In this document: piece after piece, positions 5,251-27,680 of the stretch
Position numbering within the stretch: position 1 is the first letter of the stretch
How the letters are laid out: every line of letters starts with the position of its first letter
From: Halobium salinum
GTDB lineage: Archaea; Halobacteriota; Halobacteria; Halobacteriales; Haloferacaceae
Length of the DNA: 64,000 nt
Assembly: GCF_026586625.1 (NCBI RefSeq)
Contig: NZ_JAODIW010000008.1
Span: 713,757 to 777,756 of the forward strand
Direction of reading: 5' to 3'
Notes under the pieces: model-generated
What the model was told of the DNA's origin: nothing
The model's input: only the letters and a program-made list of their open reading frames with translations
Databases searched by the model: none
Program-made: the position numbers and the translations under genes

Positions 5251-5529
5251 ATGGTAGAGAAGCCGCAGTCCGGTGAGATTCTCGGCGTGCCGTACAACTT
5301 CGACCGACCCAGCGTCGGGCGGATGCTCTCCTCATACTTCCAGCCCGGCGAGGGGATGCTCGTCAAGAAGCCCTTCGGCATCGGCTACACGCTGAACCTC
5401 GCCTCGTGGCGCTCGTGGGTCGTCCTCCTCGTCGCCGGCGCTCTGCTCTGGCACGAGCAGAAGGGCAAGACGGCCTCCGAGTCGAACGACGACGACGGTC
5501 CCGTCGAAGTAATCGTCGACGACGACTGA
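5251..5529 (+). CDS. DUF5808-type small membrane protein
   Basis: 92 aa. The first half has GVPYNFDRPSVGRMLSSYFQ and VKKPFGIGYTLNLA, matching my recollection of the DUF5808 pattern (a short dipeptide-rich motif followed by a 'GxGY-LN' block). A single membrane segment follows (WVVLLVAGALLWHEQ, about 56-70), then a charged tail ending VDDD. Function is unknown. Its TGA stop is embedded in the first unit of the hairpin repeat array that follows. The start is fixed by the TATA box 23-30 nt upstream. Confidence 0.7.
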   Translation: MVEKPQSGEILGVPYNFDRPSVGRMLSSYFQPGEGMLVKKPFGIGYTLNLASWRSWVVLLVAGALLWHEQKGKTASESNDDDGPVEVIVDDD

Positions 5530-5728
5530 GCGCCAGGACGCCCGCGCGTTCGTGCGCGGCCGACTCGCTGACGCGGTGGTGTAGACGATTACGACGACTG
5601 AGCGCAACGTGAGTGGGCCGTCTCGTCGGCTCACGACGCGCTGACGCGGAGGGACGACTGAACGCAACGACGCGCGGCGGCTCATCGCCGCGTATCTCGC
5701 TGACGCGGCGGTGCGGACGATTACGACG
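5521..5728 (+). repeat. Tandem array of three hairpin repeat units
   Basis: Three units of about 60-72 bp begin at 5521, 5593 and 5653. Each starts with GACGACTGAGCGC (GACGACTGAACGC in the third), runs through a self-complementary core, and ends with GCTGACGCGG. The cores differ in sequence but each can fold: CCGCGC/GCGCGG around GTTCGT in unit 1, GTGAG/CTCAC in unit 2, and ACGCGGCG-like arms around GCTCAT in unit 3. Units 1 and 3 also share a trailing GACGATTACGACGAC. Further copies are at 18930-19049 and 27621-27680 on the opposite strand. The array lies directly at the 3' end of the DUF5808 gene. Confidence 0.75.
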
Positions 5729-5806
5729 ACGACGACCGACTTCTGCCACGCACGAGCGACCTCCGGAGTCGCCACCGCTAAACAGCCACGTCGCGCAGTG
5801 GCGACC

Positions 5807-6151
5807 ATGAGCGGGGACCGGAGTCTCGACGAGTTCGCGACGGGGGCGGAGACGGCCGAGTCGGAGGCGAGAGACGAGGGCGAAGCCGACGTGGAGGAGG
5901 GCGGCACCGACGCCGACGCCGCGGCCGACCCGGTCAGCGAAGCCGGAGAATCCGACGAAGCGGACGTCGCTGACGGCGAGGAGGACGCGGAAGCGAAGAC
6001 GGAGCATCTCGACGCCGACGCGGTCGACCCGGCGACGCCGACGATGCGGCACGACCCGGCGGGCGTCGCCTGTGGCGCCTGTGGCGAGACGGTCGAGCGC
6101 CGCTGGGAGGAGGACGACGCGTTCGTCTGTGCCGACTGTAAGGCGTGGTGA
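5807..6151 (+). CDS. Acidic protein with C-terminal zinc ribbon
   Basis: 114 aa from the ATG at 5807 (MSGDRSLDEF); the longer open frame upstream runs into the repeat array and is not protein-like. About 75 residues of Asp/Glu/Ala-rich linker are followed by a compact zinc ribbon CGACGETVERRW...CADCKAW with two CxxC pairs near the C-terminus. This two-part layout is common in uncharacterised haloarchaeal proteins. No function can be assigned; a role as a nucleic-acid or protein adaptor is a guess from the ribbon. It converges on the PspA-like gene, with 16 bases between the two stops. Confidence 0.7.
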   Translation: MSGDRSLDEFATGAETAESEARDEGEADVEEGGTDADAAADPVSEAGESDEADVADGEEDAEAKTEHLDADAVDPATPTMRHDPAGVACGACGETVERRWEEDDAFVCADCKAW

Positions 6152-6167
6152 GGGTGGTCGACGGGGG

Positions 6168-6914
6168 TCAGTTCCCGCCGTCGTCGCCGTCGTCTTCACC
6201 GTCGCCCGCGTCTACCGCCCCAGCCTCGTCTCCCTCCTCGTCATCGTCGACGCCCATCTCGGCTCTGAGCGTCGCGAGCTCGTCTTCGATTTCGTTTTCG
6301 GCCTGCACCCGGTCGAGTTCCGCACCCGGGTCGTCCTCCTCCCCGTCGCCGAAAAAGCCCGACTCCTCCAGCTCTTCGAGGGCGGCCGCGCGAGCCTCCT
6401 GTTCGTCGATTTCGTCCATCGCGTCCGCCGTCCGGGGTGCGGACTCTGGGTCGCCGCTCGCGACACCCTCGGCGCGGGCGGCGGCCTCCTCGGCGTCGAG
6501 GCGGGCGCGCTCCGCGCGGTAACGTGAGACCCGCCGCTCCATCTCCTTCGCGCGGTCGACGAGCTCCTTCTGGGCCGATTCGAGGTCGTCGATTTGGCCC
6601 TCCAGCTCGTCGAGTTCGGTCACTTCGGTCGTCTTCTTCCGGAGGATGTCGCGGGCGAGGTCGTCCCGGCCGGCCCGGACGGCCTCGCGGGCGTCGCGGT
6701 TTCGCTCCTCGATGGTCGCTTCGAGGCGGTCCCGTCGTCGTTCGAGGCGCTTCTTCTCGGTGACGAGGTCGACGACGGACTCCTTGATGGCGGCGAGTTC
6801 GTCGTCGAGGCGCTCGTAGGTGTACTCGCGGCTCTCCTTCGGGTCCTCCAGTTCGTCGAGGAGGGCGTCGAGCTTGACACGGAGCGTCGATTCGGTGCGG
6901 TCGCGGAGTCCCAT
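6168..6914 (-). CDS. PspA/IM30-like coiled-coil protein
   Basis: 248 aa, nearly all predicted helix. Residues about 1-165 form a long charged coiled coil with blocks typical of PspA/IM30/Vipp1 proteins (LDELEDPKESREYTYERLDD, VVDLVTEKKRLERRRDRL, AGRDDLARDILRKKTTE). The C-terminal 80 residues are Asp/Glu-rich and probably disordered. PspA relatives polymerise on stressed membranes and maintain proton-tightness. The N-terminal amphipathic helix seen in bacterial PspA is short here (MGLRDRTESTLRVKLDALL). The gene converges with the zinc-ribbon gene and is read away from the ABM-domain gene upstream. Confidence 0.72.
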   Translation of the reverse strand: MGLRDRTESTLRVKLDALLDELEDPKESREYTYERLDDELAAIKESVVDLVTEKKRLERRRDRLEATIEERNRDAREAVRAGRDDLARDILRKKTTEVTELDELEGQIDDLESAQKELVDRAKEMERRVSRYRAERARLDAEEAAARAEGVASGDPESAPRTADAMDEIDEQEARAAALEELEESGFFGDGEEDDPGAELDRVQAENEIEDELATLRAEMGVDDDEEGDEAGAVDAGDGEDDGDDGGN

Positions 6915-26041: not shown

Positions 26042-26926
26042 TCACTCCCGTCCGGATGGGCTCCGAACGGTGAGCACCGGCCGTGTCGCCCCCCGGAGTA
26101 CCTTGCTCGCGGTGCTCCCGAGAAGCAGCCGCTCCGTTCCCCGTCGTCCGCGGGTCCCCATCGTGATGAGGTCCGCGCCGACTTCGGTCGCGTAGTCGAG
26201 AATCTCGCGGGCGGGAACGCCCTCCCCGATTGCCGTCTCCGTGGAGATTCCTTCGGCGTCGAGCGTCGCCGCCGCCGCGTCGGCGTACCGTTCGCTGAGT
26301 CGCGCCAGTCCGCCGAGGAGACCGACCACCACGTCGGGGTCGAACACGCTCACGTCAGTGACGGCGAGAACGTGAACGGGGGCGTCGAACTGCCGCGCCA
26401 GCGCCGCCGCGTGCGGGAGCGCCGCGAGGGACCCCCGGCTCCCGTCGGTCGGGAGGAGTACCGCCGTCACGTCTGCGAACCCGTCCGCACCCGTCGCCGT
26501 CAGCACCGGGGTCGTCGCCTCCCTGACGACCCGTTCGGCCGTGCTCCCGAGGAGGAATTCGGGACGGTTCGTCCGACCGTGGCGTCCGACCACGACGAGG
26601 TCGGCCCCTACGCGGTCGGCGTGTTCGAGGACGACCCGATGCGGGCGGCCGCGTTCGACCGCCGTCTCGACCCGCAGGCCGCGCTCCCGAGCCGTCGTCT
26701 CCGCGTCGTCGACGGCCGCTTCCGCGGAGGTCGCCAACGCGGCGGCCGCGTCGTCGAGAGGCGGTCCGGAGTCACCCGTCGCCGACGCCGAGCGTCGGCC
26801 GGGCGTCGGGACGACGCTCACCACGTGAAGCGTCGAGCCGAACGCCGCCGCCAACGTCACGGCCTGTGCAGTCGCGACTGCGGCGCCCACACTGCCGTCG
26901 GTCGCGAGCAGGACCCGTTCGTACAT
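26042..26926 (-). CDS. Tandem-domain universal stress protein
   Basis: 294 aa with two complete UspA domains (about 1-140 and 150-290). Each keeps the ATP-binding pattern Gx2Gx9GS/T: GRHGRTNRPEFLLGST in the first and GTRGRRGTERLLLGST in the second. Both also begin with the VLLATDGS / VLLPTDGS strand-loop. So, unlike the UspA at 21.2 kb, this one should bind ATP in both halves. The VIT1-like transporter gene lies 61 bases downstream in the same direction of reading on the far side, and no shared role is evident. Confidence 0.92.
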   Translation of the reverse strand: MYERVLLATDGSVGAAVATAQAVTLAAAFGSTLHVVSVVPTPGRRSASATGDSGPPLDDAAAALATSAEAAVDDAETTARERGLRVETAVERGRPHRVVLEHADRVGADLVVVGRHGRTNRPEFLLGSTAERVVREATTPVLTATGADGFADVTAVLLPTDGSRGSLAALPHAAALARQFDAPVHVLAVTDVSVFDPDVVVGLLGGLARLSERYADAAAATLDAEGISTETAIGEGVPAREILDYATEVGADLITMGTRGRRGTERLLLGSTASKVLRGATRPVLTVRSPSGRE

Positions 26927-26986
26927 GCGGGTAGTTGGCGGCGGACGGACAAGACCGTAGCGTGGGGCGTCGACCGGTGGTCGCTT

Positions 26987-27526
26987 TCAGACGAGCCCCT
27001 CGATGAAGAACCCGGTGGCGAAGGCGACGCTCGCCGCGAGCATCCCGACGACGAACATCTCGACGCCGTTTCGCACCCACCAGCGGTTCGTCACGAGCGT
27101 CCGGCTCGCGCCGACGGTGAAGAAGGCGACACCGGTGACGGCGACGGAGAAGGAGAAGGTCGGTCGGAGGTCGAGGACGTACGGCAGCAGCGGGGTCCAC
27201 CCGGCGACGACGAACGCGAGGAAGGTGACCAACGCCGTCCGACCGGGCGTCCGGTCGTCGTGGACGGCGTTACCCGTGGCGGCGGCGTAGTCGCGCTCCG
27301 AGCGGGTACTGAGGTAGTTGCTCATCCCCATGGAGAAGCCGTCGGCCAGGAGGTTCGCCACGCCGAGCACGAGAACGATAGTCGGGTCGAGCGCCGCCCC
27401 GGCGACGCCTGCGACGACCGCGAAGGTCGTAACGATTCCGTCGTTCGCGCCGTAGACGACCTCTGCGATGTACCGGCCCGCATCGTCGACCTCGTCACCT
27501 AGGAGCCGTTCGAGCATCGGGTACAC
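26987..27526 (-). CDS. VIT1/CCC1-family metal transporter
   Basis: 179 aa. Opens with GRYIAEVVYGANDGIVTTFA, the first membrane helix of the VIT1/CCC1 family with its conserved Asp-Gly-Ile. ADGFSMGMSNYLSTRSERDY holds the metal-binding region. Three further helices end in MFVVGMLAASVAFATGFFI. The plant and yeast members move Fe2+/Mn2+ into vacuoles; archaeal ones presumably export or sequester the same ions. It is shorter than eukaryotic VIT1, lacking the cytosolic metal-binding insertion, as is common for prokaryotic members. Confidence 0.85.
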   Translation of the reverse strand: MYPMLERLLGDEVDDAGRYIAEVVYGANDGIVTTFAVVAGVAGAALDPTIVLVLGVANLLADGFSMGMSNYLSTRSERDYAAATGNAVHDDRTPGRTALVTFLAFVVAGWTPLLPYVLDLRPTFSFSVAVTGVAFFTVGASRTLVTNRWWVRNGVEMFVVGMLAASVAFATGFFIEGLV

Positions 27527-27620
27527 CTCGGTAGCCCCTGGTCAATGGCGTTTCGGGAAGTCGACAGCGGCCGAACTCCTGTCCTCGGTCGGGGAGGGTG
27601 CGACCGCGACGGTCGCCGAC

Positions 27621-27680
27621 ACCACCGCGTCAGCGATGCGGGCGCGCACGAACCCGCGCCCGTCGTTGCGCTCAGTCGTC
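27621..27680 (-). repeat. Single hairpin repeat unit at the end of nhaC
   Basis: Read on the minus strand: GACGACTGAGCGCAACGAC, core GGGCGCG-GGTTCGTG-CGCGCCC, then ATCGCTGACGCGGTGGTG. It is the same element as at 5521 and 19049. The TGA stop of the antiporter gene (27674-27672) is part of the conserved left flank. Confidence 0.75.

Follow-up and report, generated by a model that had tools for sequence, protein, structure and literature searches.

Short hairpin units at stop codons of Halobium salinum are likely a non-autonomous mobile element

The genome of the haloarchaeon Halobium salinum contains a family of short hairpin units, about 63 bases long from junction to junction, whose arrays in most cases start precisely at the stop codon of an upstream gene. 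The family was found through a 64,000-nucleotide stretch of this genome (the window; NCBI RefSeq assembly GCF_026586625.1, contig NZ_JAODIW010000008.1, forward-strand positions 713,757 to 777,756), in which an earlier note, made from the letters alone, had described six hairpin units with conserved flanks and compensating stems. We conclude that the units are likely to be a non-autonomous mobile hairpin element, of the kind of the palindrome-associated transposable elements (PATEs) or REPs, predicted to insert between the GACGAC and the T of the word GACGACTGA. Three points absent from the earlier note, the identity of the left-flank TGA with a stop codon, a further type of unit (type B) before the pair at 18926-19048 of the window, and the pattern of dispersal, shift the reading from a structured RNA to a likely mobile hairpin.

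The family extends well beyond the window, as the dispersal proposed in the earlier note would have it. Across the genome (4.46 Mb in 14 contigs), the left flank GACTGARCGCMACG was found 76 times with at most one mismatch, compared to 7 times for the reversed pattern. With up to three mismatches and within the window, the left flank alone barely exceeded chance (11 matches, shuffle mean 4.5, one of 100 shuffles as high). A covariance model built from 33 units, where units without a right flank recognised by our script were excluded from the alignment, matched 94 places in the genome at E ≤ 10 and 76 at E ≤ 0.01, the latter scoring between 27.3 and 86.4 bits. These 76 units form 37 clusters, 36 of which have a single orientation. 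The exception holds two units about 630 bp apart (L155, C9:230738 and 231424), the only pair in opposite orientation, between the next gene and a gene that we take to be fumC-like; splitting this cluster gives 38 arrays. More decayed unit-like stretches are present beyond the last model match in four arrays (L181, L182, L183 and L184), so the true copy number is probably higher than 76.

The main, or type A, unit consists of GACTGAGCGC(A/C)ACGAC, a stem of 7-9 bp, a loop of 5-6 bases, a short spacer and TCGCTGACGCGGTGGTGTGGAC. The ends of the 33-unit consensus, GACTGAGCGC and GTGGTGTGG, are not inverted repeats. Units of types A, B and C alternate inside arrays, and unlike types have common junctions between GACGAC and T. 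The type B right flank occurred at 12 places, compared to none for a control pattern, and at least one of the 12 is a type A right flank; the type C pattern was only weakly separated from its control (7 places compared to 3).

The frame upstream terminates at the TGA of the left flank. In 26 of the 38 arrays, a long open frame on the same strand ends in a stop codon whose first base is the T of the first unit, and in seven more (L150, L164, L165, L172, L173, L178 and L183) a type B or type C unit starts at the stop, although for L150 the coding score of the upstream frame is low and the gene caller had chosen another gene. As for the remaining arrays, a decayed unit-like stretch starts at the stop in one (L171), two lie 8-10 bases past a stop (the plus-strand array of L155, and L168), and two have no convincing stop at their start (the minus-strand array of L155, and L157). 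Altogether, 33 of 38 arrays start exactly at a stop, and the upstream frame ends in Asp in 33 of 33 cases and in Asp-Asp in 27. In the background, comprising the window and a 400-kb sample, 43 of 350 genes end in Asp and nine in Asp-Asp; three of those nine are the window's own array genes, and the 20 sampled stretches had no array. The start word of the 33 arrays is GACGACTGA in 22, GACGACTAG in three and GAGGACTGA in two, with six other words occurring once each.

All six units described in the earlier note (at 5521-5728, 18930-19049 and 27621-27680) were located, with model scores of 50-83 bits compared to 20.2 bits for the next-best match in the window; the six were among the 33 sequences from which the model was built. 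On the plus strand, a gene for a 92-residue protein with a DUF5808 match (5251-5529) ends ...VIVDDD-stop, and its TGA is that of unit 1 (5524-5584, 78.2 bits). The array thus starts at the word GACGACTGA (5521-5529, +), the predicted target, which here reads Asp-Asp-stop. Unit 2, a subtype with an AGCGC/GCGCT outer stem, follows at 5596-5655 (+; 50.0 bits for 5596-5654) and unit 3 at 5656-5716 (+; 71.8 bits). On the minus strand, an ABC transporter gene (19109-21049) ends ...EAGDD-stop, and its TAG starts a type B unit (TAGgCCGGAGCGACCGCG...CGCCGTCGCGGAGGTGC, 19049-19111, −), which has a GCGAC/GTCGC basal stem and separates the transporter stop codon from the first type A unit. This adjoining type A unit (18988-19048, −, 82.8 bits) is followed by the last of its array (18926-18986, −, 75.0 bits). 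The remaining type A unit is single (27617-27677, −, 78.1 bits) and has its TGA in common with an Na+/H+ antiporter gene (27672-29291, −) that ends ...VVGTDD-stop. A known structured RNA family was rejected as an identity for the units, which had no Rfam 15 match above the gathering score; the sole Rfam match of the window is a tRNA gene (22897-22970, +). We likewise found no account of this hairpin family in the open-access papers searched, in keeping with the remark of the earlier note that it knew of no named haloarchaeal element with this layout.

Why should the units lie at stop codons? The word GACGACTGA occurs at eight sites in the 400-kb sample, of which six are at stops, one is intergenic and one is in a gene, and genome-wide it is found 148 times compared to 15 for the reversed word. 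It is thus almost a stop-codon address, and the word alone could send a sense-strand element to gene ends. This counts against the main rival explanation, a host function at the mRNA 3′ end, in which the hairpin would slow the terminating ribosome, block a 3′ exonuclease or end transcription, and would be kept by selection with rare duplication. We regard such a function as possible but doubtful. It would suit the position of the units, immediately at stops and in the sense orientation, and there are reported precedents: E. coli REPs no more than 15 nt from a stop are said to stall ribosomes (PMC12306157), and in Haloferax a single hairpin put to the test ended 59% of transcripts (PMC7237163). 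However, the ten upstream genes that were checked, out of 38 arrays, belong to unrelated families, including an ABC transporter, an SRP54-type GTPase, a LeuA-like synthase and an aldehyde dehydrogenase. T runs after the arrays are also ordinary, with TTTT within 100 nt in 7 of 38 arrays compared to 35 of 298 gene ends (P = 0.29), which rules against a bacterial-type, intrinsic terminator.

The stems compensate, as the earlier note had claimed, and do so above chance in the statistical test that it had called for. In the inner helix of the 33-unit alignment, eight of nine pairs show change on both sides, giving 83 both-side-changed cells. Shuffles gave 31.6 ± 3.7, with none of 500 reaching 83, and sliding the partners gave 10-22. 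Two cruder measures on the same units, which count changed pairs and pair types, were not above shuffles. The outer AGCG/CGCT stem is nearly invariant in this alignment, and therefore proves nothing on covariation. When all 76 units were scored without an alignment, 565 of 608 stem cells were Watson-Crick pairs, 14 were G-T, nine were A-C and 20 were other combinations; at least seven of eight pairs were Watson-Crick in 68 of 76 units, compared to 6% of shuffled cores. G-T and A-C mismatches are both rare and, on these small numbers, do not differ (P = 0.40), so there is no sign of the wobble tolerance of RNA, and the lack of a G-T excess speaks against a function in mRNA. Single-unit folding energies are unremarkable for GC-rich DNA (z below −2 in only two of the six window units), so that the evidence for structure is covariation, not stability. 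The sequence of the stem is not conserved, and the loop carries the motif YYYRT in 54 of 76 units, compared to a mean of 7.1 (maximum 17) in shuffled loops. The other unit types, such as type B with its GCGAC/GTCGC, suggest from their sequences a basal stem beside GGNGG.

The earlier note read compensation as the sign that an RNA or DNA structure is under selection. As put, this is not supported. Selection is one reading of the covariation, and DNA template switching, which is reported to rewrite both arms in one event (PMC8794818), is another, so that the covariation need not mean selection on RNA. Two units of one contig (L166.1 and L169.0 on C11) have the loops CACAAGC and ACAGG, the exact reverse complements of loops that occur in other units (GCTTGT and CCTGT). 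In a post hoc test, shuffles gave 0.20 such cases and reached two in 0.8% of trials. The inverted loops are a hint of hairpin inversion in DNA or of template switching. Together with the almost purely Watson-Crick pairing, such DNA-level events would also suit a structural or protein-binding repeat, similar to REPs and bound by a nucleoid protein, gyrase or a repair factor, that was spread by gene conversion between arrays. We consider this repeat improbable, as gene conversion needs a pre-existing unit, and would leave unexplained both the array starts at Asp-stop and the mixing of types A, B and C at the same junctions.

How the arrays grew can be read from the relationships among their units. 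For the 71 of 76 units of at least 57 bases, the cores of 27 adjacent pairs were no more alike than those of other pairs (identity 0.683 compared to 0.693, permutation P = 0.76), and near-identical cores occur in distant arrays (L149.0, L169.1, L175.0, L181.0 and L184.0). This argues for dispersal rather than duplication in place. The right flank was better in the first unit of an array than in the last (by 0.127; higher in 16, lower in six and tied in four of 26 arrays, Wilcoxon P = 0.018), which is what the entry of new copies beside the gene would produce. Thus, the data fit repeated insertion at a gene-side word better than tandem duplication.

We propose that the folded single strand of a unit would be recognised by a transposase or recombinase. 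By analogy with IS200/IS605, REPs and PATEs, the enzyme reading this strand would insert the unit into GACGACTGA after its GACGAC. As the unit begins T-GA or T-AG, it would supply a stop codon and leave the protein unchanged, and its end, a GACGACT-like word, would carry a new landing site, from which arrays could grow by repeated insertion beside the gene. The flanks and the YYYRT loop would be the recognised parts, and the stem a mere scaffold, whose sequence could be rewritten as long as its arms match, partly perhaps by DNA template switching. In a further reading, which we think unlikely, these elements could form a new class of mobile DNA: gene-less single-strand hairpins of 63 bp, with a nine-base target that is nearly a stop-codon address in an acidic proteome, moved by an enzyme that is not of the Y1 type and that recognises flanks, loop and shape while ignoring the sequence of the stem. 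Every copy would then carry a landing site with it, and template switching would keep the arms matched.

Diverged units were found in one other genus, g22. Among 60 genomes of the family, matches at E ≤ 0.001 outside the own genome occurred only in two g22 species (G021 and G043) and in G051, whose single match (L063, 28.1 bits) lies in a coding-like open stretch with no further units and was taken as chance. A linker pattern matched 12 of 170 genomes from 28 genera. Of these 12, the own genome, G021 and G043 alone had repeated units; at the matched loci of the other nine (including G079 and G088) there were no unit arrays and no model match at E ≤ 0.01. The search of related haloarchaea called for in the earlier note was productive for this one genus, and gave repeated units in no further genera. 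A unit-like hairpin also stands at an Asp-Asp-stop gene end in another g22 genome (G059, L251, E = 0.0036). The g22 units covary in their own right, with 16 both-side cells in two helices compared to 5.7 in shuffles (0 of 500 as high; nine full-length units, two further units that were shorter or divergent being excluded), and their basal stem varies as GCGAC/GTCGC, GCGGC/GCCGC and ACGAC/GTCGT. At one G021 locus there is another tandem hairpin family (L262, C1:337902), with the right flank GCTGTCGCGGAGGTGC, near to that of our type B, and with stems that compensate (GTGACC/GGTCAC compared to GCGACC/GGTCGC). In a further genome (G012, L195), two short GACTGAGCGG repeats stand after a VDD-stop gene, where no unit-like hairpin is present.

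Both g22 species have arrays behind two genes, the fumC-like gene and one of the inositol-monophosphatase family, and every one of these arrays is at an Asp-Asp-stop. At third codon positions, fumC of the two species is 78% identical. First units at the same position are 0.66 (fumC) and 0.70 (phosphatase) identical across species, and the two first units within G043 are 0.82 identical; for the second units behind fumC, identity across species is 0.83. The g22 units average 0.710 within and 0.697 across species, so the picture is mixed. Of 29 fumC loci inspected, from a set of 30, 19 were readable, nine were missed by the motif and one was in the wrong frame. Besides the own genome and G021, six of 17 readable orthologues end GGC-GAC-GAC-TGA, and none of these six loci had a model match at E ≤ 0.01; it is exactly at this position that the g22 units start. 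Such filled and empty sites speak for insertion. In the own genome, fumC ends SE-stop, and the unit lies about 10 bases further on.

Outside the haloarchaeal genomes, the left 17-mer had 11 exact matches in viral contigs, where the unit model reached at most 26.6 bits, and the right flank had no match in viral contigs. A virus or plasmid origin was rejected, with the 11 matches judged to be probably chance and the model scores below the range of the own units. There was no match in 72,556 plasmids and 50,697 phages. In general genome contigs, from which the own genome was perhaps excluded, 83 stretches matched the left 17-mer; none was titled as a haloarchaeon, and they were read as chance.

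The units share many features with the PATEs of Haloquadratum walsbyi, which are described as transposase-free, include 52-bp terminal-only copies of ISHwa23, and were inferred to be mobile although nearly all IS200-type transposase genes are broken; a conserved terminal oligonucleotide was read by the authors as a targeting sequence outside the element (PMC3119063). As far as that description goes, both are haloarchaeal, free of transposase, short (too short for a gene) and without terminal inverted repeats, and both have an internal hairpin or palindrome. A terminal oligonucleotide that acts as a target may exist here too: GACGACT-like words stand at the junctions, and GACGACTGA is present without units behind fumC in six other genomes, none of the same species. 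The units differ from PATEs in being single hairpins, in direct arrays at stop codons and with rewritten stems. They also differ from a MITE of the DDE type in having no terminal inverted repeats.

REPs and BIMEs are likewise present as tens of short intergenic hairpins. Their transposase, TnpA-REP (RAYT), is reported to recognise a single strand including the loop and the foot, and to cleave at CT 5′ or 3′ of the hairpin (PMC8266576); comparably, the junction here is GAC|T. In contrast to REPs, however, the units have no GTAG directly 5′ of the stem (the left flank of the 33-unit consensus being GACTGAGCGC) and stems that are not conserved, and their arrays are direct and not head-to-head. 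The table of RepRanger names at least six archaea, none of these six haloarchaeal by name, and its main text has no word beginning with 'halo' (PMC12306157). CGTC-tagged palindromic repeats are also described as hairpin repeats without a dedicated transposase; they are shorter, nearly always have stems beginning with AT pairs and are mostly from alpha-Proteobacteria, and the main text of that paper uses the word 'archaea' twice (PMC3733652).

The attC sites of integrons have conserved outer boxes and a variable, structured middle, and are sited just after gene ends. The layout of the units, with variable stems and conserved flanks, resembles that of attC, and a 7-9 bp core is directly repeated at the junctions, so that 63-bp circles might be recombined at a GACGACT core by a tyrosine recombinase reading the folded strand. 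This is very improbable, since the GTTRRRY and RYYYAAC boxes of attC are absent from the flank consensus, which has other boxes, and there are no cassettes.

Several observations weigh against a mobile element. Taken alone, GACGACT occurs at six stops, at 32 intergenic sites (of 38 non-coding) and at 78 sites in genes. If this were the whole target, the bias towards stops would exceed site availability and would speak for selection, as the host 3′-end function requires. We rejected GACGACT alone as the target, as the placement at stops fits the longer word GACGACTGA better, albeit with only eight sites sampled. Eleven of the 33 array starts differ from GACGACTGA; moreover, a unit supplies its own stop letters, so the word before insertion cannot be read off, and a target-site duplication would be indistinguishable from the unit's own GACGACT. 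The genus is represented by one genome, so that no strain with a precise empty site is available for comparison. The whole-unit identity of adjacent units is slightly higher than that of others (0.779 compared to 0.759, P = 0.015). Twenty units with decayed flanks keep 7.0 of 8 pairs, compared to 7.6 elsewhere, and flank quality is only weakly correlated with pairing (rho 0.26, P = 0.02), which would fit a host function or continued maintenance. The two g22 species share both array positions, which shows that arrays can be kept long, and keep the stems at both genes, which again would suit a function at the mRNA 3′ end.

The search for a mover adds to these objections. The Y1 transposase (TnpA, PF01797), a mark of the REP/RAYT system, had no match in the own genome, compared to matches in five of 14 control genomes. 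Five TnpB genes exceed the family cut-off (L308-L312), without TnpA. At six loci around TnpB matches the unit model scored at best 14.6 bits, so the units do not resemble these surroundings, a further difference from PATEs as far as the own-genome loci compared are concerned. No autonomous or parent element was found in the own genome, and an IS605 parent there was rejected for want of a Y1 gene and of unit-like TnpB ends. Some of these TnpB-locus ends read like CCCTTCAGGGCGGGGAGGATGTCAA, within which GGAGGATGTC is faintly like the GGAGGTGCGAC of the unit. The mover of the units may have been lost, may be supplied from elsewhere, or may be of another type.

If the units are mobile, a selfish repeat would hit gene ends in this organism harmlessly, since in an acidic proteome the word that it targets means little else than 'Asp-Asp-stop'. 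This would bear on what moves transposase-less archaeal hairpins, a question left open by the authors of the PATE study. The 76 hairpins, in which the flanks and the loop motif are fixed and the stems freely rewritten, are also a natural test bed for the origin of compensatory changes, and can address whether these arise by selection or by template switching.

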